This document shows, one piece after another, positions 1 through 63,640 of a stretch of 64,000 bases of DNA (within the stretch, counting starts at the first letter, position 1; each line of letters opens with the position of its first letter). The DNA is from Apoderus coryli (Eukaryota; Arthropoda; Insecta; Coleoptera; Attelabidae), in contig OU452198.1 of assembly GCA_911728435.2 (NCBI GenBank), forward strand, positions 18,448,001 to 18,512,000, in the 5' to 3' direction. The position numbers and the translations under genes were made by a program. A model generated the notes under the pieces. It worked only from the letters and a program-made list of their open reading frames with translations, was not told the origin of the DNA and searched no databases.

Positions 1-2160
1 TTTATTTTTGCTCAAATAATTGAGTTATTGAAAAAATTCCATATCATCTGTATTTCATTAAATTCAATTCATTCAAAATCTGACAAAAATCATGAAAAGA
101 TGAGAAATTCGATTATGCCACACTTTATTTGAAGTTTTTCACCATCAACATAGTCCACTACATTTTCCTCAATAAATCCACACATTACACATGGAGCATT
201 ATTAGATACTTGATTTTCCAACAAATTTAATTTACTCAACTCCTACAATAATATGACAAATATGAAATCATTATTTTATCTAAAAAACTACTAATTATTA
301 TTATTTTACTACTATAGAAATAAACTAAATCTGACTTTTTAAATGACAGATTTGGCATTCTAATATTGATTTTTTACCGTTCTCTAGACATTTGTGGTGG
401 GAATTATGATTAATTTTTTTTAGATCGTTACGTTAAACGATAGCAATGTAAAAAACTAACCAAGTTATTATCTTTACATATGACAATAGATACGTAAACA
501 GCACATAATCACGGGAAATAATATTATATACTAGGAAAACATATAACATAATATTCAAATTACTGGTGCCAGTAGTCAATATTGTCCTTCACAACTTGTA
601 TTATACATAAAGTATCTTTAGAATTAAGTACTACACCAGTTTTTCAGATTGTTCCACAGTGTGGTTTCTCCAACATCAATGGAACCCTGCCCGGTGGGAC
701 TCTTGGTATAAATATAACCATTTTAATTCTTTTGCGTGATTCACTTTCTTAATTTCTCTAATTGTTTTTCAATAAAATTAAAATATTCAAATGCATCAAA
801 CAAAACTAGCATCACGTTAGAAATGTTAATTTTTAAAAACTATTTTTAAATCAAGTCAATAATGTAGTTCGGTTGTGAATATAATTCTTCAAAGTAGAGT
901 AAACCAATACACATTGTTTCCAATTCTCATACGCCCACACATATGAAAAGCAAAAGTATGTTTTGAATTTAGAAATTAAGGTTACGTTGTGAAATATTCA
1001 TACGACTGAATGGTTTATAAAGGAATGTTAAATAGTGCAAGTGATACAGAGCCTAATTGTTTATTTAGTGAAATTTAAATATTACTGGTCAAAATTATAA
1101 TTCAATACCAATTCAATGATAAATTTAATTTAACAACAATAACAATTAATTGTAAAATAATAATTGATATACAGTTTCTGCTTAAGCTTCAAATTTGAAA
1201 ATAATTTTTTCTACGACTGTCTTTAAATGCCTTTATTATATGTTCAATCATGATAAGGAAAAAAAGTTAGGTTATAATTAAGGCAAGGGTCCCCCCCGTT
1301 TACCCGCCTATGGTCAGCTTACGACATTTAACTAGGTGAATAAATATGCTACATTTGGTTAATTCATCTTTACTCGTTTCGAAAATATTTCAAAAAAATC
1401 ATCCTCAGGCAGTCATCTTTAACACCCTGTAGCTTTGTATATAAAGACTTTTCGAAAAATTACAATTTACGTTTTTTTCATGATGGGATGTCTCCAATTC
1501 GCTCACAAATTTTGACCATGTCTTTCTGAAACACCCTGTATAATATATCATGATTAACGTATTAACAGCTTATGTAGAAACAGATAAACAAAGGGTCTCG
1601 GAAAATTTTCAAACATGTTCTGTAACATAAAAACCAATGAAAATTTTTCTGAGAGTGCATTTTTCGTACCACCAAAGAGCAGCATCCGTTCCCTAAAACC
1701 GCAAAGCCCTTAATGCTAATGTTTTACTATTTTCTTACACAAAATTTAGTAAAGTTGAGAGCTTGTTGTTGTTCAACTTGAGTAAAATACACGTCTCTCG
1801 GTTAACCTTTAACTTAGCGGAGAGATAAAAACTGACCCCGATAGAGATTTTTGCATATAATCCAGTGGCGTAGTTAGATTTTATATGAGGAAAACGATTG
1901 CGGAGATATAAACCAATCTTTTGTTTTTTTTTAATTGCTCTATTTTTCTCTATTTTTGTCGGGCTTGTTATGTGCTTTCCAAAAAAATATATTTTTCATA
2001 TTTATTTCATTTCATAAATTTGTAAAAAAATCTTATAAACGGTCAGAATAGCCATGCGAAACAAACCAACGTTTGTATTTGTATTTGATTTTTTTTTTAA
2101 TTTTTTGAGTTATTGTTTTTGAACTGCCAACATTTGCAACTATCTCCTTGACTGATGTTG
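1..2160. other. A/T-rich non-coding DNA with dispersed repeats
   Basis: No coding stretch is recognised. A segment at about 345-480 (TTGGCATTCTAATATTGATT followed by TTTTACCGTTCTC) recurs in diverged form at 32520-32660. A segment at 600-720 is a copy of dispersed repeat family A. Short CACCCTGTA motifs near 1421 and 1541 resemble the outer tips of the TA-inserting elements found elsewhere in the window. Confidence 0.6.
600..720 (-). repeat. Dispersed repeat family A, copy 1
   Basis: The string TTTTCAGATTGTTCCACAGT, then GGTTTCTCC and CCCGGTGGGA, matches 38560-38635. The same family appears, in different parts, at 12840-12990, 13330-13560 and 36670-36960. Shared words include CAGACAGACAG, GACTTCAAAATGG and TTTTTTTAGCGC. 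No protein is visible, so it is probably a non-autonomous element of unknown class. Confidence 0.6.
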
Positions 2161-2184
2161 CACTACACGGCCTTCTTAATATTA

Positions 2185-3080
2185 CGAGGGTTGCGTTTTA
2201 TATTTCGGGATTTGGCAACCCTGGTGTTGCAATCTGGCAACTGACAGCTCTATCGTAAAGTTGGACATTTTTGAGGTTATACGTACTCAGAACGTTTTGA
2301 CCAGCATACATTCAATATTGTATAAAAATTTGACGGTCAAAAAAAATTTGTTCACGTTGGATCCCACACAATTTGTCAATCGCTCAAAAAAAGGCTCGTG
2401 TCGATTGGTCGAAAGAAATGCTCAAAAAATACGATCGCGGTGCTTCGAAACACGTCTATGACATCGTGACAGTTGATGAATCGTGGATTTACGCATATGA
2501 GCCCGAAAATAAACAGCAGTCGACTATATGGGTGTTTCAAGATGAGCCAAATCCAAAAAAAGTTGTTCGCGCACGAAGCACTTCCAAGCAAATGGTCGCC
2601 TGTTTTTTCGGAAACATTGGACATGTCGCAACCGTATCACTAGAGCAACGCAGTACAGTTAATTCTGAGTGGTACACAACCATTTGTACGCCAGTTGTCT
2701 TCCAAGAAATCAGGAAAGCCAACCGCCGAAGACGGATCGGCTCAAACAATTGCATTTTGGAGCACCCAAAACATCGATTTGATGAGTCATCCGCCGTATA
2801 GTCCTGACTTGGCACCGAGTGACTTCTTTTTATTCCCGTACGTAAAAAACAAACTGAGAGGTCAACGTTTTTTGACACTTGAAGAAGCGGTTGCTGCATT
2901 CAGAATGCATGTTTTGGAGATACCTCAATCAGAATGACAAAAGTGCTTCGACAATTGGTTCTAACGCATGCAAAAGTGTATAGATCTTCATGGGGAATAT
3001 TTTGAAAAACAATAAAGTGATTTTCGATGATTAATATTTGTTTTTGTTTTCTAATCCCGAAATATGAAAGGCAACCCTCG
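2185..3080 (+). mobile_element. mariner (DD34D) element, internally deleted, with TA target duplication
   Basis: Terminal inverted repeats of about 28 bp begin CGAGGGTTGC and contain ATATTTCGGGA at both ends with two mismatches. A TA dinucleotide flanks each end (2183-2184 and 3081-3082), the mariner target signature. The element is 896 bp against about 1.3 kb for full-length mariners. The missing part encodes the DNA-binding N-terminus. Preserved ends mean it could have been mobilised in trans, but the internal gene is dead. Confidence 0.9.
2373..2937 (+). pseudogene. mariner transposase, C-terminal catalytic half, frameshifted
   Basis: The remnant encodes part of the DDD catalytic domain that would cut and join transposon ends. 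The first aspartate lies in TVDESWIYAYEPE (about 2470) and the third in the mariner signature YSPDLAPSDFFLFP (about 2800-2835), where D3 is in APSD. The region around the second aspartate is corrupted and the frame changes near 2695-2750, so the two halves lie in different frames. The N-terminal helix-turn-helix domains are absent, matching the short element. The family call is secure from motifs; loss of function is certain. Confidence 0.9.
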
Positions 3081-3425
3081 TAGTAATTTGAATACTTACA
3101 CACTATAACCAACAAATAATTATTATTGTATTGATTGTCACTTCTGACAGGTGGCAAGAGATGTATTTGGCGTTTTTGCAATCATGGCTATCCTGATTCT
3201 GTCTGACTATGTGATTTTCTTATAAATTTATGAAACACGCTTATAACTTTTAAGCTAATGAACACAAATATAAAGAACTATATATTTTTGGAAAACTCAT
3301 AATAAGCCCTACAAAAATAGAGAAAAATACGTTTACAAGATGATGGCATTACATTTAAAATTCGACGTATTATTTTTGTGAAATAATCATGAATAATTAT
3401 TATAATTAATTATAATTAATAAAGA

Positions 3426-3885
3426 GCATTTCAGATAATGATCTTTTTTGGTAATTAACCTCACGATCAAGGATTCTAACGCTATTGAAGTCAAAATCGT
3501 TGTATCTTAGAGACTTTTTATTTTTTGTCATGCCAACATAAACACTATCGCAAGACGCACACTAATATTGTGACGTACTCAAAGAAGAAAGTACAGCACC
3601 TTTTCACTAACTTGAAGGATAGGACAGCGCTACAAAATATATCTGAAGTGGTTTATTTGATACCGTGTGCGTCTTGCGATAGTGTTTATGTTGGCATGAC
3701 AAAAAATAAATTGTCTCTAAGATTGAAGCAGCATGCAAATGATTGTCATCCTGGTAAGATAGATTCTCTTTCAAAGACAGCCCTTGCAGCACACCACTTT
3801 CAGACACACAACGATTTTGACTTCAATAGCGTTAGAATCCTTCATCGTGAGGTTAATTACCAAAAAAGATCATTATCTGAAATGC
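3426..3885. repeat. Inverted partial duplication of a Penelope-like fragment
   Basis: Bases 3426-3503 are the reverse complement of about 3808-3885, and about 3504-3557 are the reverse complement of about 3667-3722. The left arm lacks the roughly 85 bp present between these blocks on the right. The arms flank a spacer of about 110 bp and can fold back. An open frame beginning at 3525 starts inside the inverted arm, so its first residues are an artefact of the inversion. Confidence 0.85.
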
Positions 3886-3977
3886 AATTTACTAATAAGT
3901 TCCGAGACAAGTCCCTAAATTATAGAACTGATACAATGAATTTGAGCATTATTTATTCAGGTTTGTTGTCATGCTAA
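3558..3977 (+). pseudogene. Penelope-like element GIY-YIG endonuclease fragment
   Basis: This is the C-terminal endonuclease domain of a Penelope-like retroelement, which nicks target DNA for reverse transcription. The GIY-type segment VVYLIPC precedes VYVG, then LSLRLKQH, where the conserved arginine sits, and a C-terminal part resembling the family block TALAAHHFQTHNDFDF. No reverse-transcriptase domain is found upstream, so only the 3' end remains, followed by a stop near 3975. The usable frame starts only after the inverted arm. The assignment rests on motif order and spacing. Confidence 0.75.
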
Positions 3978-6349: not shown

Positions 6350-6650
6350 ATTATAACCCAATGTAATAATCAGCTAACATTGGTTTAACGTACAAAAGTC
6401 ATAGATTCATGTTTCTCGTTCGTAACATTAATAACCTTCAGACATCGGTTTAATGTACAAAAGTCATAGATTAATGTTCATCGTTCGTAACATTAATAAC
6501 CAGCTAACATCGGTTTTACGTATTGGAGACATAAACTAATCTTCATCGATCGTAACATTAACAACCTGGTAACATCGTTTTAACGTACAGGAGTTATAAA
6601 ATAATGTCCATCATTCGTAAGATCAATAACCGGCGAGCATAAATTTATGT
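6350..6650 (+). repeat. Tandem repeat, about 65-bp period, 4-5 units
   Basis: The anchor word ACATYGGTTTWACGTA starts at about 6376, 6442, 6507 and 6572, giving spacings of 66, 65 and 65 bp. Each unit also carries TTCRTNCGTAACATTAATAACC. The last unit decays after 6620. It is a short satellite-like array with no coding potential. Confidence 0.85.
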
Positions 6651-18629: not shown

Positions 18630-19427
18630 GGGCCAGTTTTATAGGTATAGTTTAAACCAAATGTGGCAGTTAAACTTAAGTTTTTCTTTTTTGTTCGTTT
18701 TATAGCTGCATTTAACCACCAATCTTCAGAATTCTGTAGTTTAACTATCAACTGATGCTTGAAGTACCCGTTAAACTGTAAACTATAGTTTAAATATACC
18801 AATTGTGTAATTTTTAACAGTACGAATTGTTAGTAAAGCAATAGGTAGGTACGTAAAAATATTTGTGAAAGGGTTATAAATATTAAAAATAAAATTACAT
18901 ATAAAATAAGTACCTACCTAGTACTATTTGCTTGTGTAATATGGATGATGTATTAGAAGAAATATTTAGAGATTATTGTCTGATGATAAGGATTACGAAA
19001 ACATCATTGATGCTATTAAAGTCCCAAGAAAACTTCGAACTTTTAAGGAACGAATATATGATATGAATAATTTTTAGCGCGATTTATAATTTCAAAAGTG
19101 TCTCTTGATATTTTGCTAGAAATACTGGGCCCAGTTCTAGAAAATAATACAGTCCAATAAGTTTTACTTTTACTAACCAATTTATATTTTTACCAAGAAA
19201 TAGATTTTTTATCATGAATCATCCATGTCTGCTCTGATATTTGAATAAATACGTATTGATATAGAACGGTGTGCTGCTTAACAAGATAATTTCATATAAA
19301 GTGAAGTTAGCTAGATTTTGCAAGTAACCGTAATCTATAAAACTAACATTTTGAATAACTATGAGTTAAACTAAAGATAAAAGCTGGTGGTTAAACTATA
19401 GTTTTACCGTAACCTATAAAACTGGCC
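18630..19427 (+). mobile_element. PIF/Harbinger-like element relic
   Basis: Both ends read GGGCCAGTTTTATAGGT inward and are inverted, with ATAGTTTAA repeated just inside. The left flank is TAA and the right AAA, near the three-base TWA target of the superfamily. Between them, from about 18942, a decayed frame encodes MDDVLEEIFRDYC and, after breaks, RKLRTFKERIYDMNNF and a HARBI1-like 'SKVSLDILLEILGPVLE' block (to about 19145). The nuclease domain is absent, so the element is non-autonomous and old. Confidence 0.65.
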
Positions 19428-20075: not shown

Positions 20076-20640
20076 CAGGGTGTCCCATAATTAATGGTAC
20101 ACAGTAAAAGTGCAGAGTCCTTGGGTAAAAATATTGAGATTTGGCCAAAATTCCCTTAGCCCAAATGTTGATAATAATGGTTTGGGGGCGAGGCATTTGA
20201 ATTTGTTGATAATTTTGATGTGAATTGTAGAGGGCGCTCTCTGCAGCACTTTAATTACATAAAAACAAATGTAACTTTTTTGCCTCAGTGTATTTACGTT
20301 TTTATTAAAAATATCACTTCTCTCATCATTGTTACGTAAAAAAAGGTATACATTGTGAATGTCGCTCCGAGCAACTATTTTCAAGATATTTGCAATTATT
20401 AGATTTTGATTTGCAAATGTAGAATTTTTCAAAGTAGGCTTGGATAATAAAAACCATTGCAATGACACTAAACTAAATATAAAATGGGTGGTTGCCATTT
20501 AAAAATTTTGAATTTTGACACTTTTTCAATTTGATTTTTTACTTTTAATATTTACTAAAAAAATATACGTAGGCGCCTAAAGTAGGTCTATATCTCCTAG
20601 GATATTCTAACAAATTAGATTATTAGAGCTTCCATATAAT
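20076..20640. mobile_element. Half of a TA-inserted foldback element (family of 36922-38608)
   Basis: A TACAGGGTGTCCCATAATTA tip opens at 20074-20076. The stretch 20500-20635 (AATTTTGACACTTTTTCAAT, then ATATACGTAGGCGCCTAAAG and TATATCTCCTAGGATATT) matches the arms of the foldback at 36922-38608 closely. The opposite arm is not present: the sequence passes instead into another repeat near 20638. A minus-strand 135-codon frame (20091-20498) has no family resemblance. Confidence 0.6.
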
Positions 20641-20741
20641 AAATAAACTGTTGCCCTCGAGGCACGAATAGCTCTCCATATTTAAGTGTAAAAGTAATAA
20701 TTTTATGACCTTTTTGTCATTTATCTAAAATTTATAGATAT

Positions 20742-20875
20742 ACCATATTATTTCCGAGAGTTTGGCTGTCAACTACTGACCGATCACCACTGATGAGTCG
20801 TGGATCGACGAAACGGTCGTCTGGTGAAAGTATAGTGGTTGACAGACAAACTCTCGGAAATAATGTGGTATATAC
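20742..20875 (+). repeat. Hairpin unit with 37-bp arms enclosing a ribozyme
   Basis: The arms start ATATACCA and run through ATTATTTCCGAGAGTTTG to CTGTCAAC. They pair over about 37 bp with two mismatches (left about 20742-20774, right about 20839-20876). The loop is the hammerhead motif. Flanking TA steps could be a target duplication, but the palindromic ends make that ambiguous. Confidence 0.85.
20785..20826 (+). ncRNA. Hammerhead ribozyme, type I, canonical core
   Basis: This is predicted to be a self-cleaving RNA. Stem I is CACCA (20785-20789) with TGGTG (20822-20826). The core CTGATGA occupies 20790-20796. Stem II is GTCG (20797-20800) with CGAC (20806-20809) around a TGGAT loop. GAA follows at 20810-20812. 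Stem III is ACG (20813-20815) with CGT (20818-20820) around a two-base loop. C20821 is the predicted cleavage-site base, in the context CGTC. All invariant core residues are present. Outside stem I an asymmetric internal loop (CTGACCGAT / AAAGTA) leads into the long hairpin, placed as natural loop-loop contacts usually are. The three-pair stem III is short, as in retroelement-associated hammerheads. Confidence 0.9.
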
Positions 20876-20984
20876 TAAGTTTTGTTAAACAAGCCCATTT
20901 CAATATTTTTTTTGTTTTAGACAGTATTTTTTTTAAGTATCGGGTTTTGTTCCTTTTTCTTCTCTTTGGAGGCACTATACAATG

Positions 20985-30719: not shown

Positions 30720-31110
30720 AAAAAAATTAGACAGAATAATGATATACTTACAAAAAGAAACGCTATATAAAAAATGACTAAATTTTTAGAATATTTTGAC
30801 CACACAAATGTTCTGGGTTTCTCATTTTCAATAAGAATATGTTTTAATTTTATAACATTTTATTTCAATAACTTCCACTAATTGTTTGTATATAGACGTT
30901 TAAATAATCCATGCCATACTCTGTTTGACTTGTACTTAACATGACTGCGTAACTATGTATACTGAGCCACTGATGATGGAAACTTAGTTTTCCGAAACAC
31001 GTCTGGCGCTGCAAGCTGATTGCGAACAAATATACAAATAGTTTGGTGGAGTAGACGCTGTTTTATTTGTGTCTTACACATTCAACTCCTCTCTAATATG
31101 GATTACTTCA
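30720..31110 (+). repeat. Hammerhead-like dispersed unit, copy 1
   Basis: About 390 bp, repeated in inverse orientation at about 36250-35868 and partly at 36297-36490. Shared strings include TAGACGTTTAAATAATCCAT, TTTGACTTGTACTTAACATG, GCTGATTGCGAACAAATA and TTTATTTGTGTCTTA. The motif at 30966-31008 resembles a minimal hammerhead. It interrupts a tandem array, as a mobile sequence would. Confidence 0.75.
30967..31007 (+). ncRNA. Hammerhead-like motif (one extra base at helix II)
   Basis: Stem I GCCA (30966-30969) pairs with TGGC (31004-31007). The core CTGATGA (30970-30976) is followed by an extra T. Helix II is then GGAAA (30978-30982) with TTTCC (30989-30993). GAA follows, then a two-pair stem III AC/GT and C31003 in a GTC cleavage context. 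The unpaired T before helix II departs from the canonical fold, so activity is uncertain. Minimal hammerheads with very short stem III are known from Penelope-like elements, which fits the tails seen elsewhere in the window. Confidence 0.55.
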
Positions 31111-32519
31111 GGAAAAATTATTCAATATTTCGGATAAGTTTAAGTACTATGATTTTTTGAATCCTCTTTTAAACCCCTTGCCTACGCTCAATGTTAATCA
31201 CCACCTATAAATATCCTATATAGTATTTTCGTACCAAATGTGGTTAAAATCCGTTATGTGGTTTTTGAGTTATCACGGGTACAAATTTTTTCTGACCCTT
31301 TTATAGAACTTTCACGGACGCCTATGGTACATTAATTTTTGTCGTGTATTTTTAATACCAATTCAACTAGTTAAATATAAAAAATTTTAAATTTAATTTT
31401 TTTTTATTTTACCCCTTTTTCTATTTACGAACGCCTATGTAAATAAAAATTTTATGCTGCATTTTTAGGTTATCTTATATCAAAGCTATATATAATTAGC
31501 CAATTTTTCTGGTATATTTGGGAAACATTTTTTTTTCGTTTTTGACCCTTTTTTAGACTATTTTGGAACGCCTGTGTGAACCAATTCTTTTATGTAACAT
31601 TTTTTAGGTTATATTCTATCACTACTATGAAAAATTATTCCATATTTCAAATAAGTTTAGAAAATATATATTTTTTAAGTTTTGACCCCTTTTCCACTAT
31701 TTACGAACGCCTATGAAAGTAAGTTATTTATGACACATTTTATAGGTTATATTCTATCAAAGCTGTAAATAACTAGTTAATATTTCTGCTATGTTTAAGA
31801 AATAGGTTTTTTAAAATCTTTTTTACCCCATTTTACACTATTTTCGAACGCCAATGTGGTCTAATAATTTATGTTCAATATTTTAGGTTATATTCAAGTA
31901 AATGCGTGAAAAATTATGCAGTATTTCGAATAAGTTTGAGAACTATGAATTTTTTTAATTTTTGAACCCTCTTTTAAATCCCTTGCCTACGCTCAATGTT
32001 TCCCAAAGTCTAATCAGCTCCTTGCCATGTCCAACAGTATTTTTGTACCAAATTTGGTTAAAATTTGTTTAGTGGTTTTTGCGTTTTCGTGGATACAGAC
32101 AGAAAGACAGACATTTTTTTAAAACTACTTATTTATTTATAAAATGACCAAAAACAAGTATTTCCGGTGAAATTAAAAAACAAAAAAATTTTCATGAAAC
32201 TAATAGTCTTCATATATATATTACATATATGATATGGAGAGCTAAAAAGTTATCGAACTAGATAGAATATTAAATGTTCAAATGGAACACATTATTATAT
32301 TATAGTATAAATCAATGCAATGATAATTTGAAAAATTGTGTTCAACCTGACCATAAAAATAATATTTATTGTCACAATGACCAAGTGCTGGGGTTTAAGT
32401 TTATTTTTATTATTAGTAATTGAAGAATTATACACTTATGGAAGACACCCTTAGAAGGTGAAAACGATATTACGCCTTATATTTTTCAACAATGAACGAT
32501 AATTTGTTAAAAGAATTAG

Positions 32520-33389: not shown

Positions 33390-33722
33390 ATGCCTATTAT
33401 ATAATATAATTTACTCCAGTCCAGAGTGGACTACTTTCTTTAAAATAAAGTAATATATATTAGTACTTCTCTCTTGGGGCTATTTCCGTTTTTCCTAATT
33501 TATTAACACCCTGTACCTCTGATCGAAAATTTTCATATTGTAAGCAAGCAGAACTTTTTGTAAAACAATACTTTTTGTCGTAAAATGAAAAATAAAGAAT
33601 TGTTTCCGCTTTTACTGTGAATAATACCTACACATATACATCATTATGAAAAAAATCGGTTGTGTCACCCCAAATCTTTCCCGACAAGTTATCATATAGG
33701 GAGATATACCCAATCAAAAATA

Positions 33723-35809
33723 CAGGGTGGTCCAACGAAAAGTTTGCACCTAGCTTTTCTCTTTTTTTTGTAGTCGAATGCGAAAATGCTCGGACACGTC
33801 GATTTTGCTTTTGAGGGGGACACATTTTAAACATATTTTTCGATCTGCGCCTTTAACCCCCTAGCGGGGGTGAGTAACAACCCTAAAATTTTAAATGGAA
33901 AGAGGGGTCTAATGACATATCATTTGAAAGGACACAAAATTGTCTTTCTAATGATACCCTATTTGTCGAATTTTACTAAAACAGTTAATACGAAAACGAC
34001 TTTAAAGACATTAAGCCGATAATTTTGGTATTAATGAGAAATACAAATAAGTTTTAATTATTGCGAGTGAAAACACCTGCAATCGTTAGTACATTCCAAT
34101 GTTTGTTAGTTTTAACATTGCTTTGTAAAAAAAGTAAACAAGCTGTTAAATTGATTTATTAAAACGTTACATTAACAAATGTTGAAAATGTGACCCATTT
34201 GATTCCATACAATAATACAGATTTTGTTCAAATCTATTTCTAACATTTTGTAGCATATCAGGTGTTATGTTTCTGCACTCTTCTGTAATGCGTTGGCGAA
34301 GATCTTCTATGGACTCGGGCTTCGTGGCAAAACATTTATTTTTTAAGTGCCCCCAAAGAAAAAAGTCTAAAGGCGATAAATCCGGTGACCTGGCAGGCCA
34401 TTCAATTGGGCCCCTCCTTCCAATCCACCGTCCAGGGAACCGGTCATCTAAGAACTGTCTTACAGGAGCCACATAGTGCGGAGGTGCTCCATCTTGCTGG
34501 AAATAAAGCCGATCAGCAGTATGATTTTGGTCATCTTCTATTATTTGTGTTATTAAAGGATCAATTGTGTCTTCTAGCATGTTTAGGTACACTTCACCAG
34601 TTAAATTTCCAGGAATAAAAAGTGGTCCTATAATATGATTTCCTAATATGCCACACCAGACGTTTATTTTTTGAGGATACTGGGTATGAACCTCACGGAA
34701 TAAATGTGGGTTACTGTCATCCCAGTAACGGCAATTGTGCCTATTTACAGCTCCATTCAAATAAAATGTGCATTCGTCGGAAAAACAAATGTTAAATAAT
34801 AATTGCGGATCTTCAATTAAACGCTGGCTCATTGCTTCACAAAATTGCAGCCTTCTATCAGGATCATCCTCATTTAGTTCCTGTACTAATTTGATTTTGT
34901 ACGGATGAAATTTGTACGCTTTTAAAATTCGTATTATGGACGAACGGGAGACACCTGAGGCTTCAGCTAGTTGACGGGTACTTTGACTATGATCCATTTC
35001 AACATGCCCTAAAACAGCGACTTCCACAGCTTCATTTCTGATCGGTTTCTGCGGCTGGTGTTTTACATTACAGACAGATCCGGTATCTACAAACTTTTTA
35101 ACTAACTTGCCAACGTACACATCATTCACATTTTTATCGGGATGTCTCTCATTAAATAAGCGAGCCGTAAGTCTAGCACTACTATTATTTTGAAAATAAA
35201 GTTTAACAATTTCAACTCGTTCTAGAATGGAATAAATCATTTTGTACGGTAAAAGTAAAATAACTTGAGAAGCAACCAAACTGAATCAATGAAAAGACTA
35301 AAATAAACGGTGTAAATTCTTTTCCTACACGTATCTGCAGTTTTTATTTCAACAAAAAACGCAAACGATTAGTGAGGAATTTAGTTCTGATAAATAAGAT
35401 AGTGTTTTTGAAATCCCGTTTTTCTTCAAAGTAAATAATTTAGAAATGATTGTAGTTGTTTTCAGTCGTAATAATTAAAACTTATTTGTATTTCTCATTA
35501 ATACCAAAATTATCGGCTTAATGTCTTTAAAGTCGTTTTCGTATTAACTGTTTTAGTAAAATTCGACAAATAGGGTATCATTAGAAAGACAATTTTGTGT
35601 CCTTTCAAATGATATGTCATTAGACCCCTCTTTCCATTTAAAATTTTAGGGTTGTTACTCACCCCCGCTAGGGGGTTAAAGGCGCAGATCGAAAAATATG
35701 TTTAAAATGTGTCCCCCTCAAAAGCAAAATCGACGTGTCCGAGCATTTTCGCATTCGACTACAAAAAAAAGAGAAAAGCTAGGTGCAAACTTTTCGTTGG
35801 ACCACCCTG
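33723..35809 (-). mobile_element. Apparently complete DD41D (Tc1/mariner superfamily) transposon
   Basis: The ends CAGGGTGGTCCAACGAAAAG (33723) and the inverse (to 35809) are flanked by TA at 33721-33722 and 35810-35811. The terminal inverted repeats are 340 bp (33723-34062 and 35470-35809), and I saw no difference between them on reading. A single uninterrupted transposase gene fills the centre on the minus strand. Identical long repeats plus an open gene point to a young insertion that may still move. Confidence 0.93.
34167..35279 (-). CDS. DD41D transposase, open and apparently intact (370 aa)
   Basis: This enzyme is predicted to bind the 340-bp inverted repeats and cut and paste the element into TA sites. 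A likely start is Met14 (MIYSILERVEIVKLYFQN), since the first 13 residues look untranslated. Residues 14-70 form the first helix-turn-helix. 95-125 form the second (STRQLAEASGVSRSSIIRIL). The catalytic residues are D168 in CFSDECTF, D263 in YFQQDGAPPHY and D305 in PDLSPLDFFLWG. There are 41 residues between D263 and D305, hence DD41D. The length is usual for the superfamily. There are no internal stops. The closest relatives in this window (46679, 54556, 10140, 11067) are all broken. Confidence 0.93.
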   Translation of the reverse strand: MVASQVILLLPYKMIYSILERVEIVKLYFQNNSSARLTARLFNERHPDKNVNDVYVGKLVKKFVDTGSVCNVKHQPQKPIRNEAVEVAVLGHVEMDHSQSTRQLAEASGVSRSSIIRILKAYKFHPYKIKLVQELNEDDPDRRLQFCEAMSQRLIEDPQLLFNICFSDECTFYLNGAVNRHNCRYWDDSNPHLFREVHTQYPQKINVWCGILGNHIIGPLFIPGNLTGEVYLNMLEDTIDPLITQIIEDDQNHTADRLYFQQDGAPPHYVAPVRQFLDDRFPGRWIGRRGPIEWPARSPDLSPLDFFLWGHLKNKCFATKPESIEDLRQRITEECRNITPDMLQNVRNRFEQNLYYCMESNGSHFQHLLM

Positions 35810-35867
35810 TATATGACCTGCGTAACGAAACAGAAATAATATTTCTTGAAGTAATCCATCTCAGAGA

Positions 35868-36250
35868 GGAGTTGAATGTGTAAGACACAAACAAAACAAC
35901 GTCTACTCCACCAAACTATTTGCATATTTGTTCGCAATCAGCTTGCAGCGCCAGACATGTTTCAGAAAACTAAGTTTCCATCATCAGTGGCTCAGTATAC
36001 ATAGTTACGCAATCATGTTGAGTACACAAGTCAAACACAGTATGGCATGGATTATTTAAACGTCTATATACAAACAATTAGTGGAAGTTATTGAAATAAA
36101 ATGTTATAAAATTAAAATTAAAAAACATATTCTTATTGAAAATGAGAAACCCAGAACATTTGTGTGGTCAAAATACTCGTATTATAAAAATTCAGTCATT
36201 TTTCTGTATAGCGTTTCTTTTTGTATATCATTATTAGGTATTGTGTCTAA
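35868..36250 (-). repeat. Hammerhead-like dispersed unit, copy 2 (inverse)
   Basis: On the minus strand, 35999-35951 reads GAGCCA, CTGATGA, T, GGAAACTTAGTTTTCT, GAAAC, AT, GTC, TGGC. Stem I (GCCA/TGGC), the short stem III (AC/GT) and the GTC cleavage context are intact. Helix II has one G-T wobble and the same extra T as copy 1. The rest of the unit matches 30720-31110. Confidence 0.7.
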
Positions 36251-36296
36251 TATTTTGCAATCTAGAACTTTCGACAAATGACCGCCATTTGTTTGA

Positions 36297-36490
36297 AATA
36301 GACGTTTAAATAATCCATGCCATACTATGTTTGACTTGTACTTAACATGACTGCGTAACTATGTATACTGAGTCACTGATGATGGAAACTTAGTTTTCCG
36401 AAACATCTCTGGCGCTGCAAGCTGATTGCGAACAAATAGACAAATAGTTTCGTGGAGTAGACGTTGTTTTATTTGTGTCTTAGAATTGTA
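36297..36490 (+). repeat. Hammerhead-like dispersed unit, copy 3 (decayed)
   Basis: GTCA CTGATGA at 36374-36384 begins the motif. The stem III/cleavage segment reads ACATCTC rather than ACACGTC, which breaks one stem III pair and loses the GTC context. It faces copy 2 head-on across about 45 bp, so the two units form an inverted pair. Confidence 0.7.
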
Positions 36491-36921: not shown

Positions 36922-38608
36922 GATTCGATCGATTATGGAGAAACTACACTGTGGAAGAATCTGAAAGTCTGGTGTAGTACTTAGGTCGACGAAAGCAATT
37001 CGGCTAAAATGTTTTCAAGAATCTAGCACTTCCGGTTATACCGGAAATGGGTGTCAACTTCCTTATTTCAAATGTGACCCTATGTAAAGTATATCTTTGT
37101 TGGATTCTCTTTGTAATTCTAAACATATTTCATGCATAATATTGTAACGAAGTAGGGTTCGGCAGGCCAAATTAAAACAAACTAAATTGATGCTATTTGT
37201 TTATTTTTGCAGTTCCCTAAAAAAAAGTCACACATTACAAAATAATTCTATTTCGCCTGAGCTAAAACTTATATAATTCAACAGTATCAGTATCACGAAA
37301 GTCCTTAATAAAAGGCAAAGTGAATCTTTAATTAAAACCACTAAACTTAAGGAACTGTAAACAATAAATGAATGAAAATAATATGCTACTGAAATTTCAA
37401 TATCAAGTTACATTTTTTTTAAAAATAGATATATATTTATTTATTCTGAAACCTACTAGGTATAGACCTCCGTTGGCCAGAAAAGGAACTACAAAAATAG
37501 ATTTCACCTTTATATTTATTTATTTAAACAAAACACTAAACTTATAAATTTCGTTACAATATGTTATACGTATCGCCAGCCGTTTTCGAAATATTTGAAA
37601 TTTTATGTCAAAAATGACGTTTTCAGAATAGAGAATAATAACAATTTTTTATTATATGGAAGCTTTAATAATTTAATTTGTTAGAATATCCTAGAAGATA
37701 TAGACCTACTGTAGCCGCCTACATATATTTTTTTAGTAAATATTAATACAGGGTATTTGAAAAAAAGGGTAAAAAATCAAATTGAAAAAAGTGTCATAAA
37801 TCAAAATTTTTAAATGGCAACCTCCCATTTTATATATTTTTTTACATCAAAAATAAGGGCAAGTTTATGAAAGGATGTCTATCCCAAAAACTGATATTTT
37901 TCAAAATATTGGCAATTTTACATTTTTCTATTACAATAGTGATATGAATTTGAAATTTAATTGATTTTAGTTGGTCATGATGGCTTTAGATAGCAAATAA
38001 ATATGACACTTGACAAAAATAATCAACAACTATGACAAATTGTAGACATTAATTAGTAGTAATAATCATGGCGGACGTATAAATTATACTAACGAATCTA
38101 AATTTGTTTATTATTTATGGAGAATGGTGGTGGTCACAAATAGGTTAAAAATTTTGAATTACGTCACTTTTTTCAATTTGATTTTTTACCCTTTTTTTCA
38201 AATACCCTGTATTAATATTTACTAAAAAAATATACGTAGGCGGCTAAAGTAGGTCTATATCTCCTAGGATATTGTAACAAATTAAATTAATAAAGCTTCC
38301 ATATAATAAAAAATTGTTATTATTCTGAAAACGTCATTTTTGACATAAATTTTCAAATATTTCGAAAACGCCTGACGACAGGTATAACATGTTAGTATGA
38401 AATATATTTAGAATTACAAGCAGAATCCAAAAAAAATATAATTTATATAGAGTCGTACTTGAAATAAGGAAGTTGACACCCATTTCCGGTATAACCGGAA
38501 GTGCTAGATTCTTGAAAACATTTTAGCCGAATTGGTCCCGTCGACCTAAGTACCACACCAGATTTTCAGATTGTTCCACAGTGTAGTTTCTCCATAATCG
38601 ATCGAATC
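36922..38608. mobile_element. Large foldback element, left arm split by a solo LTR
   Basis: The outer edge GATTCGATCGATTATGGAG (36922) is inverted at 38608. Ignoring the insertion, the arms cover about 36922-37815 and 38150-38608. Shared blocks are TAGCACTTCCGGTTATACCG, AGTTGACACCCATTTCC (inverse), AAATGACGTTTTCAGAATA and TAGACCTACTGTAGCCGCCT. The centre (about 37816-38149) is A/T-rich and non-coding. Related fragments lie at 20500-20635 and 56880-57000. Confidence 0.85.
37143..37558. mobile_element. Solo LTR (about 416 bp) with 4-bp target duplication
   Basis: The element starts TGTAACGAAG and ends TTCGTTACA, the TG...CA form of long terminal repeats, and is bounded by ATAT on both sides (37139-37142 and 37559-37562). 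Removing it restores continuity with the opposite arm of the host foldback, which pins down the insertion precisely. No coding sequence is inside, so this is the product of LTR-LTR recombination. The gypsy group is likely from the 4-bp duplication and end sequence, but is not proven. Confidence 0.85.
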
Positions 38609-62539: not shown

Positions 62540-63640
62540 CTCTGCCAAACTTTGTTATTAAAAACTATTGGCTTGCGGGGAAAGTTTACCCTCTTTGCGG
62601 ACGATACAACACTCCTGTGGAATATTATCAAGCGGGATATTCAGACTGATTTGATAGAACTAAAGGAGTGGTGTGATTGTAACTATCTTTCATTCAATAT
62701 AGCAAAGACGCATATCTTGTCTTTTAATTTTGACTTTGGTGACTTGATCCTGGAGAGCAATCCCATCGAAAATATTAAGTGTATTAAATTTCTTGGACTT
62801 CACATAGATATAAGGCTTAAATTTGAGGAACATGTGAGGCAGTTGAGTGGAAGAGTTTCGTCGGGTTGTTATGCGTTAATGGTTGTTGCGTGGGAATTGG
62901 GATCGGAGGCTGCGCGTAACGCTTATTTTTTGCTAGTTGAATCACATCTTAGATACGGTATAGCCTTCTGGGGCTCATGCTGTCGAACTTTATTCAAATG
63001 TGTCTTTATTTTACTTGCTGTCTGGGCAAGTTGTAGAGAACTGTTTAAGAAACATCAAATATTGACTTCATTAGTTATATTAGAAACTGTATATCTCCTG
63101 CATAGAAACTTGCAGAATATATCTTCGTCTGCTCCATCTGCTCACCGTTATCCTACGAGATTGCTCCAGCGCGCACACCTACCTATACCTAGATCAGCCG
63201 TAACAAGGAGATCTCTCATTTATGAAAGCCGCAAAATTTATAATTCCTTGCCACCAACTTTAACGGCAATGGAAAATTATAGGCAATTTGGGTCTGTCAA
63301 AAGAAGGCTGCTTAACAATGCCTCCTATTATCTTGATGATTTCGTTTCAGATGCCTGGTAGTGTTTTTTTTTTCCTTAACACTGTTATGTTGGGCTCACG
63401 TTACGTTATGTCTGGTAGTGCCCATGTTTTGTATTGTTGTATGGATGTATTATTTATTGTATTGTTATGTGTATATGTTTGTAATTTTAAATTTGTATTT
63501 TTGTTTTTTTTTTATTTATTTGATATGATGATTGCACACTTGTGTATATCTTGTAATTTTTAAATTGTAAATTTTTTTAAGTACCTGACTTTGTCTACGA
63601 GAAAAGTGTAAGTCTTTATGACAATAAAGTTATATATATA
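62540..63640 (+). pseudogene. LINE reverse transcriptase C-terminal half with 3' UTR
   Basis: An open frame from 62552 to 63361 begins at the active site: GLRGKFTLFADDTTLLWNII contains FADD. It continues LKEWCDCNYLSFNIAKTHIL, KFLGLHIDIRLKFEEHVRQL and SHLRYGIAFWGSC (thumb), SCRELFKKHQILTSLV, and the C-terminal SLIYESRKIYNSLPPTLTAM. The segment FKCVFILLAVWASC replaces the usual 'LQKRAIR.L.G...' block, suggesting a small frameshift. Everything before the YADD-type motif is missing (5' truncation). The 3' UTR ends with GACAATAAAG near 63625. It is the longest uninterrupted LINE frame in the window. Confidence 0.88.

Follow-up and report, generated by a model that had tools for sequence, protein, structure and literature searches.

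Non-LTR retrozymes of metazoans were defined by Cervera and de la Pena in 2020 (PMC7229834), and insects are named among their hosts in the consulted sections of that account. The mobilising enzyme is left open in the same sections, which name LINEs or Penelopes and regard Penelopes as a strong candidate; the part of PMC7761336 that bears on the question likewise proposes Penelopes as a strong candidate for moving retrozymes. Penelope copies have been described as inverted and head-to-head, with 8-10-bp duplications and an optional tail, an anatomy that the pertinent section of PMC3846280 explains by self-priming. A purified Penelope protein has been shown to cut AT-rich DNA and to extend both of its strands, starting in vitro at two internal RNA sites that bound the tail; the start site did not differ between strands, and the ribozyme was not required. 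In a lizard element the cut lies 26 after the start codon and reverse transcription starts at 111-118, and the later steps of the two-strand mechanism are said there to be yet to be validated (PMC11167929).

The locus described here lies in a 64-kb stretch of the 428-Mb Apoderus coryli assembly (the whole stretch analysed is called the window). It carries a lone, altered and truncated fragment of a non-LTR retrozyme (Table 1). Retrozymes of this sort are established as non-autonomous retroelements, and the present family is an additional member. The family as a whole is probably used in trans by the protein of a Penelope-like element, through two-strand target-primed reverse transcription, a reading to which we give a probability of about 0.78. 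That Penelopes move retrozymes is an earlier proposal, found in the consulted parts of PMC7229834 and PMC7761336; genomic evidence is what is added here.

Table 1. Features of the retrozyme fragment, its hammerhead hairpin and a Penelope-like gene piece in the window.
Feature	Position	Strand	Basis or remark
Partial retrozyme copy, subfamily A, ~u250 to ~u72	20738..20902	+	mapped on the unit consensus (positions u)
Outermost hairpin pairs, 5' arm	20742..20751	+	ordinary unit sequence; a stem only through the changed 3' arm
Outer conserved stem I, 5' arm	20752..20777	+	26 pair positions with 20834-20859, across the internal loop
Inner stem I, 5' arm	20784..20789	+	pairs with 20822-20827
Hammerhead type I core	20790..20821	+	read from sequence and Rfam alignment
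CTGATGA element of the core	20790-20796	+	read from sequence
Stem II, GTCG/CGAC	within 20797-20809	+	read from sequence
GAA element of the core	20810-20812	+	read from sequence
Short stem III, ACGGTCGT	20813-20820	+	read from sequence
C17 of the core	20821	+	predicted cleavage 20821|20822
Inner stem I, 3' arm	20822..20827	+	stem I pair count
Outer conserved stem I, 3' arm	20834..20859	+	stem I pair count
Outermost hairpin pairs, 3' arm	20860..20869	+	nearly unique to the window copy
GIY-YIG endonuclease piece, Penelope-like element	3525..3977	+	Pfam GIY-YIG, E 2.2e-4, 21.9 bits

A preliminary description of this DNA had proposed a hammerhead core at the tip of a long hairpin, with a predicted cut after C20821, and this much is borne out by the sequence. 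The type I core is complete, the predicted cut agrees with it, and Rfam Hammerhead_1 aligns to it over its full length; the score of 31.2 bits, with E 3.2e-6 in a sequence of 221 bases, falls slightly short of the curated cut-off of 34 bits. At that cut-off the whole window yields no Rfam hammerhead, and neither do three sampled loci with copies of both subfamilies (L029, L061, L078), so that the curated threshold can miss such elements and screens relying on it may overlook this family. The 134-nt hairpin strand folds at -73 kcal/mol (z = -12.8, with none of 200 shuffles equally good), a value due mainly to the long inverted repeat. The same property would account for the best microRNA matches lying on both strands (mir-552, MIR395 and others), all of which fall well below their cut-offs, and a microRNA identity was rejected. 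A loose core pattern has four matches in the 64 kb against 0.16 expected: the core of Table 1, related minimal motifs at 30970 and 36376, and another at 18980.

With up to three mismatches allowed, the genome contains 4,193 occurrences of the 27-nt core (2,103 forward, 2,090 reverse), against none for the reversed control. The 39 other best-scored relatives cover the 134-bp hairpin only partly, at most over its positions 1-122 or 3-126, and the 29 that were fetched and aligned run on into other sequence beyond it. Because relatives match a part and continue into a unit of about 331 bp, the hairpin is not the repeated unit. Cores are spaced 331-333 bp apart in the tandem arrays among sampled copies; a second subfamily (B) has units of 334-338 bp, and sampled units measure 331-338 bp overall, with one type I hammerhead each. 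Among 136 cores found at 87 partly overlapping loci with a pattern requiring CTGATGA and GAAA, 112 are identical over 32 nt. The consensus of subfamily A has a GC content of 0.46, and its unit is predicted by circular RNA folding to form a strongly paired circle. Taken together, the canonical core (its Rfam score under the curated cut-off), tandem units within 150-450 bp, a GC content below 50% and target duplications longer than 4 bp are the features of a hammerhead retrozyme. A tRNA scan of four retrozyme loci found none. Two tandem arrays of the window itself (6364-6631, 65-bp units; 31396-31976, units of ~138-141 bp) show no match to retrozyme units.

Subfamilies A and B have an identical consensus core and largely different stem I arms. 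Across the family stem I comprises 32 pair positions (26 + 6) flanking a 6x6 internal loop. When 38 stem I pair positions are compared between the two consensus sequences, 12 have changed on both sides with pairing kept, all of them in the outer conserved stem, while 3 show a change in a single arm, 19 are identical and 4 lack a pair in A or B. Among 45 of 69 distinct sequences, intact and with both arms recognisable, 92% of cells are paired, against 32-45% after one side is slid by 1-3 positions. Given the compensated changes and this level of pairing, the long stem I looks like a maintained RNA structure. The numerous copies, compensatory stem changes and tandem units elsewhere in the genome for which the preliminary description had proposed to search are thus all present, and the tandem units could yield circles. 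The outcome it named as refuting, a single-copy unit whose stems lack compensatory changes, was not observed. Its long stem I stands for the 32 family-wide pair positions; the outermost ~10 pairs are peculiar to the window copy.

Those outermost pairs (20742-20751 with 20860-20869) stem from a change in the right arm of the window copy, which may be read as a fold-back copy of the left arm. A 30-mer spanning the change occurs once in the genome without mismatch, and the single further place at one mismatch (C11:25961043) likewise has the right-arm form. At up to three mismatches the count rises to 898, of which the first 100 places as listed were examined; the matches listed open with GCCAAAC or GTCAAAC, the sequence of the normal left arm in reverse and not the right-arm form. 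The right end of the copy is the regular site P1 (...AAACAAGCCCATTTCA) described below, and inspection of the flanks of this diverged copy by eye gave no convincing target duplication. Since it has just one ribozyme, the window copy presumably could not by itself release a unit circle. A 102-bp dispersed repeat, present at 20545-20646, 38212-38313 and 37645-37746 with 93-94% identity, stops ~90 bp upstream of the fragment. Elsewhere in the window (33720-35812), a transposase-like open reading frame of 370 aa (34167-35279, minus strand), which we take to be mariner-like, lies between inverted repeats of 376 bp that are 98% complementary.

How retrozyme copies are inserted was read from two sets of loci. 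The first consists of the first 60 of 68 clusters derived from 100 listed core places, every one of them on contig C1 and without a mismatch in the 27-nt core. Cores on both strands occur in 14 of the 68 clusters, in every case in minus-then-plus order, and 36 of the 60 loci are two-sided, all 36 head-to-head (minus-then-plus); the other 24 are one-sided. Outer ends gather at two sites of the unit, P1 and P2, whose bands were set by eye after a first mapping. Where the end is fixed by a flank repeat, P1 falls mostly at u70-72 in subfamily A (range u68-75) and u75-78 in subfamily B (range u73-82), while for P2 the usual positions are u226-230 in A, with outliers at u216, u235 and u237, and u229-235 in B. 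Among the 36 two-sided copies 26 have one P1 and one P2 end, none has P1 twice or P2 twice, and 10 have one unclassified end; these 10 include L041, whose ends at u72 and u68 lie just outside the P1 band and could be P1/P1. L040 and L041, 30 kb apart on C1, share the same inner junction, and one is probably a segmental duplicate.

The second set, 25 loci chosen for likeness to the window copy, omits the window copy itself (L001), L026 (which overlaps L025), L029 and L030 (the places of L091 and L090), L031-L038 (already in the first set) and the one-sided L027. All 19 of its two-sided copies are again minus-then-plus; 13 are P1/P2, none has the same site twice and 6 have an unclassified end. 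As L008 and L009 have common flanks, the 13 represent 12 independent cases. Were ends chosen at random, 38 mixed pairs in 38 would have a probability of ~4e-12. Selection for a perfect core might enrich P1 ends, but it does not explain the pattern, since P1/P1 copies would then be common and none was seen.

In the first set, flank repeats of at least 8 bp accompany 24 of 26 P1/P2 loci, against 3.7% of 3,540 mispaired flank pairs, and in the second 12 of 13, against 4.2% of mispaired flanks; over all loci they are found at 33 of 60 and 13 of 25, respectively. The 33 repeats are most commonly 12 bp long (range 8-16) and 85% A+T. In one-sided copies the 3' end is at P1 (16) or P2 (4) in 20 of 24, and the 5' end is unclassified in 21 of 24. 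Inserts mostly span 1 to 3 units and at most ~6, and in 36 of the 60 insertions a stretch of one orientation exceeds 340 nt, roughly the length of a unit, as expected of a circular or tandem template. Inner junctions could be anchored in 33 of the 36 two-sided copies, with listed fillers that are upper bounds because exact extension breaks at diverged bases; shared bases were rejected as a joining rule (at least 3 nt in 2 of 33, null 5%). The hairpin before P1 is well supported; a conserved hairpin before both start sites was also rejected, that at P2 being local only, with a pair probability of 0 in the circular fold. These insertions bear the marks of what would be target-primed reverse transcription that uses both strands and copies a circular or tandem RNA from two fixed internal starts.

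The window also holds a possible relative of the machinery. The GIY-YIG piece, scoring just below the Pfam cut-off of 22.6, is partly inverted-duplicated at 3415-3702, and appears to be kin of the candidate autonomous element. Within 3415-3977 the GIY-YIG frame is partly overlapped by its inverted relative, at 50% protein identity over 3702-3415; a protein search with the frame returned no match. A genome search with the piece gave 2,718 candidates, and among the best 150, which were scored, open frames of 820-862 aa occur in several. In these 150 there are 25 clusters with more than one hit within 7 kb, namely 22 minus-plus, one minus-minus-plus, two plus-plus and no plus-then-minus, so that all 23 mixed clusters are minus-then-plus. 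Three Penelope-like insertions were readable on both sides (two other fetched pairs were unreadable), and each has one end with a 27-nt tail and one without, between flank repeats of 12-14 bp. In L099 an inverted repeat of 1,569 bp (arms 198-1766 and 1783-3351, 100% complementary, 16-nt spacer) lies within a 13-14-bp flank repeat; one end halts at ...CAGTATTCAT and the other runs 27 nt longer. Its perfectly complementary arms and short spacer suggest a very recent insertion. L102/L103 and L104/L105 also have one tailed and one untailed end, with repeats of 12 and 13 bp. The window further contains three copies of a Penelope-type terminal repeat, at 30881-31122 (+), 35835-36078 (-) and 36289-36482 (+), the latter two 94% and 95% like the first; they bear a minimal hammerhead-like motif (CTGATGATGG...CCGAAACA), and those at 35835-36078 and 36289-36482 stand head-to-head, with an extra ~40-nt tail in one alone.

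Measured from the hammerhead or hammerhead-like cut, the end lies at ~70 nt for P1 of subfamily A, at 66 nt for L099 (untailed end) and at 73 nt in the terminal repeat at 36289-36482; for the lizard element we compute 85-92 nt from cut to the start of reverse transcription, using the numbers in PMC11167929. No long sequence common to retrozyme ends and Penelope-like ends was found. A unit of 331-338 nt is too short for an open reading frame with reverse transcriptase and GIY-YIG endonuclease, and the retrozyme is not itself a Penelope-like element but a likely client of one. Retrozyme copies and the genome's own Penelope-like elements alike show head-to-head arrangement, two alternative 3' ends (P1 and P2 being taken as the analogue of untailed and tailed) and duplications, those of Penelope-type insertions being ~8-14 bp.

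From the observed unit, core number, covariation, polarity, pairing of one P1 with one P2, duplications and matching Penelope marks, we infer the following course of cleavage, circularisation, enzyme action and order of steps. Every hammerhead in a tandem retrozyme transcript would cleave it, and the units so released would circularise, as in the published family, and a circle or multimer would be used in trans by a GIY-YIG Penelope-like reverse transcriptase and endonuclease of the same genome. This enzyme would make a staggered cut ~12 bp wide in AT-rich DNA and prime on both target strands, with P1, ~70 nt downstream of the predicted cut, as the start of one cDNA and P2, another ~155 nt round the unit, as the start of the second; the two cDNAs, often longer than one unit, would then be joined 5' to 5' by end joining. 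A Penelope-like mover is suggested by the polarity of the genome's Penelope-like elements, which the LINE family tested did not show, by their two alternative ends, and by the ability of purified Penelope protein to extend both strands from two internal sites (PMC11167929). Counted against it are the in vitro starts without strand difference and the dispensable ribozyme; the 10 of 36 two-sided copies with an unclassified end, L041 and the 24 of 60 one-sided copies; the lack of a long sequence common to both kinds of end and of a clear duplication around the window copy; and the by-eye bands, the perfect-core selection, the zero probability of the P2 hairpin and the small number (three) of readable Penelope insertions.

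Beyond this, we lean slightly towards a view in which a Penelope dimer grips one retrozyme RNA, probably a circle, each subunit starting at its own internal site, one per strand, so that a complete insertion has one P1 and one P2 end; the same would hold for the Penelope tail. If true, the 'optional tail' of Penelopes would follow regularly from priming on both strands, and a retrozyme would amount to a minimal, circular substrate for the Penelope machinery. A literature search among open-licence papers found no statement of the one-of-each pattern per insertion, for retrozymes or for the tail.

Two alternatives would dispense with reverse transcription. The preliminary description had taken the ribozyme for the loop of a MITE-like inverted repeat, that is, a passenger in a non-autonomous DNA transposon with the hairpin arms as its terminal inverted repeats. 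A near-perfect inverted repeat in the window copy and a core in many copies would suit this, but the hairpin is the extended stem I of the ~331-bp unit, to which the sampled ones among the 39 partial relatives continue; its outer 10 pairs are nearly unique; and copies are bounded by P1 and P2, with 8-16-bp duplications, and not by fixed terminal inverted repeats. Fixed 3' sites, a variable 5' side and AT-rich ~12-bp duplications also misfit a DNA transposase, which makes a MITE very improbable. Hammerheads in units of this kind are already known, as metazoan non-LTR retrozymes (PMC7229834). Amplification as satellite DNA, by unequal exchange or extrachromosomal circles, would account for tandem units of 331-338 bp; it is scarcely credible for dispersed inserts that usually measure 1 to 3 units, never more than ~6, and that have fixed 3' ends and repeats in their flanks.

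The other two alternatives keep reverse transcription and alter its agent or its course. A LINE, for example of the family of the reverse transcriptase piece at 62552-63361 of the window, could move the retrozyme in place of a Penelope. LINE-type reverse transcriptase pieces are abundant in the genome (14,325 candidates), and LINE insertions also show ~12-bp duplications. The pertinent sections of PMC7229834 name LINEs besides Penelopes as possible carriers. Against this, the control made with that one family gave no minus-then-plus cluster, and hence no head-to-head pair, and one plus-then-minus cluster among 143 scored hits of the 14,325 candidates, which leaves a LINE carrier quite improbable. 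The head-to-head structure might instead arise by self-priming (snap-back), as proposed for Adineta Penelopes in the consulted part of PMC3846280, and not by two-strand priming. The inverted repeat of L099, with its fully complementary arms 16 nt apart, is as predicted by snap-back, and 11 of 33 retrozyme junctions join unit positions within 30 nt, where ~6 would be expected at random. Snap-back should, however, copy back to the same end, whereas, by the bands used, 39 P1/P2 and no same-site copies occur among 55 two-sided ones; all three readable Penelopes have one tailed end, and 22 of the 33 junctions join more distant positions. Self-priming is therefore judged unlikely. With two-strand priming by a Penelope-like enzyme as the preferred reading, the insertion anatomy constitutes strong genomic evidence pointing to Penelope-type mobilisation, and the one-of-each pattern suggests an ordered two-strand mechanism for Penelope elements. 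Fixed ends, duplications and the one-of-each pattern make the Penelope question testable in vitro by the assay of PMC11167929.

Compared with known systems, this family has in common with metazoan non-LTR retrozymes, as characterised in the consulted sections of PMC7229834, a type I hammerhead, tandem units of 150-450 bp, a GC content below 50%, duplications longer than 4 bp and a highly self-paired unit RNA. Its sampled copies are often head-to-head with two fixed 3' ends, unlike that account, in whose main text the word 'inverted' is absent and head-to-head copies are not described under that word. The hammerhead satellites of newts, schistosomes (Sm alpha) and Dolichopoda crickets also place a hammerhead in repetitive tandem DNA (PMC6155905 and PMC7229834, in the parts consulted), a likeness taken from descriptions and confined to that one trait. 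With GIY-YIG Penelope-like elements, as presented in PMC11167929 and the relevant sections of PMC3846280, the retrozyme shares head-to-head copies and copies in full or partial tandem, targets rich in A+T with duplications of ~8-14 bp, a pair of alternative 3' ends (the 'tail') and a hammerhead motif, which in those elements lies upstream of the start of reverse transcription. It differs from them in its full canonical hammerhead core, in a unit too short for their open reading frame and in start sites ~155 nt apart, against ~27-40 nt in the Penelope-like elements.
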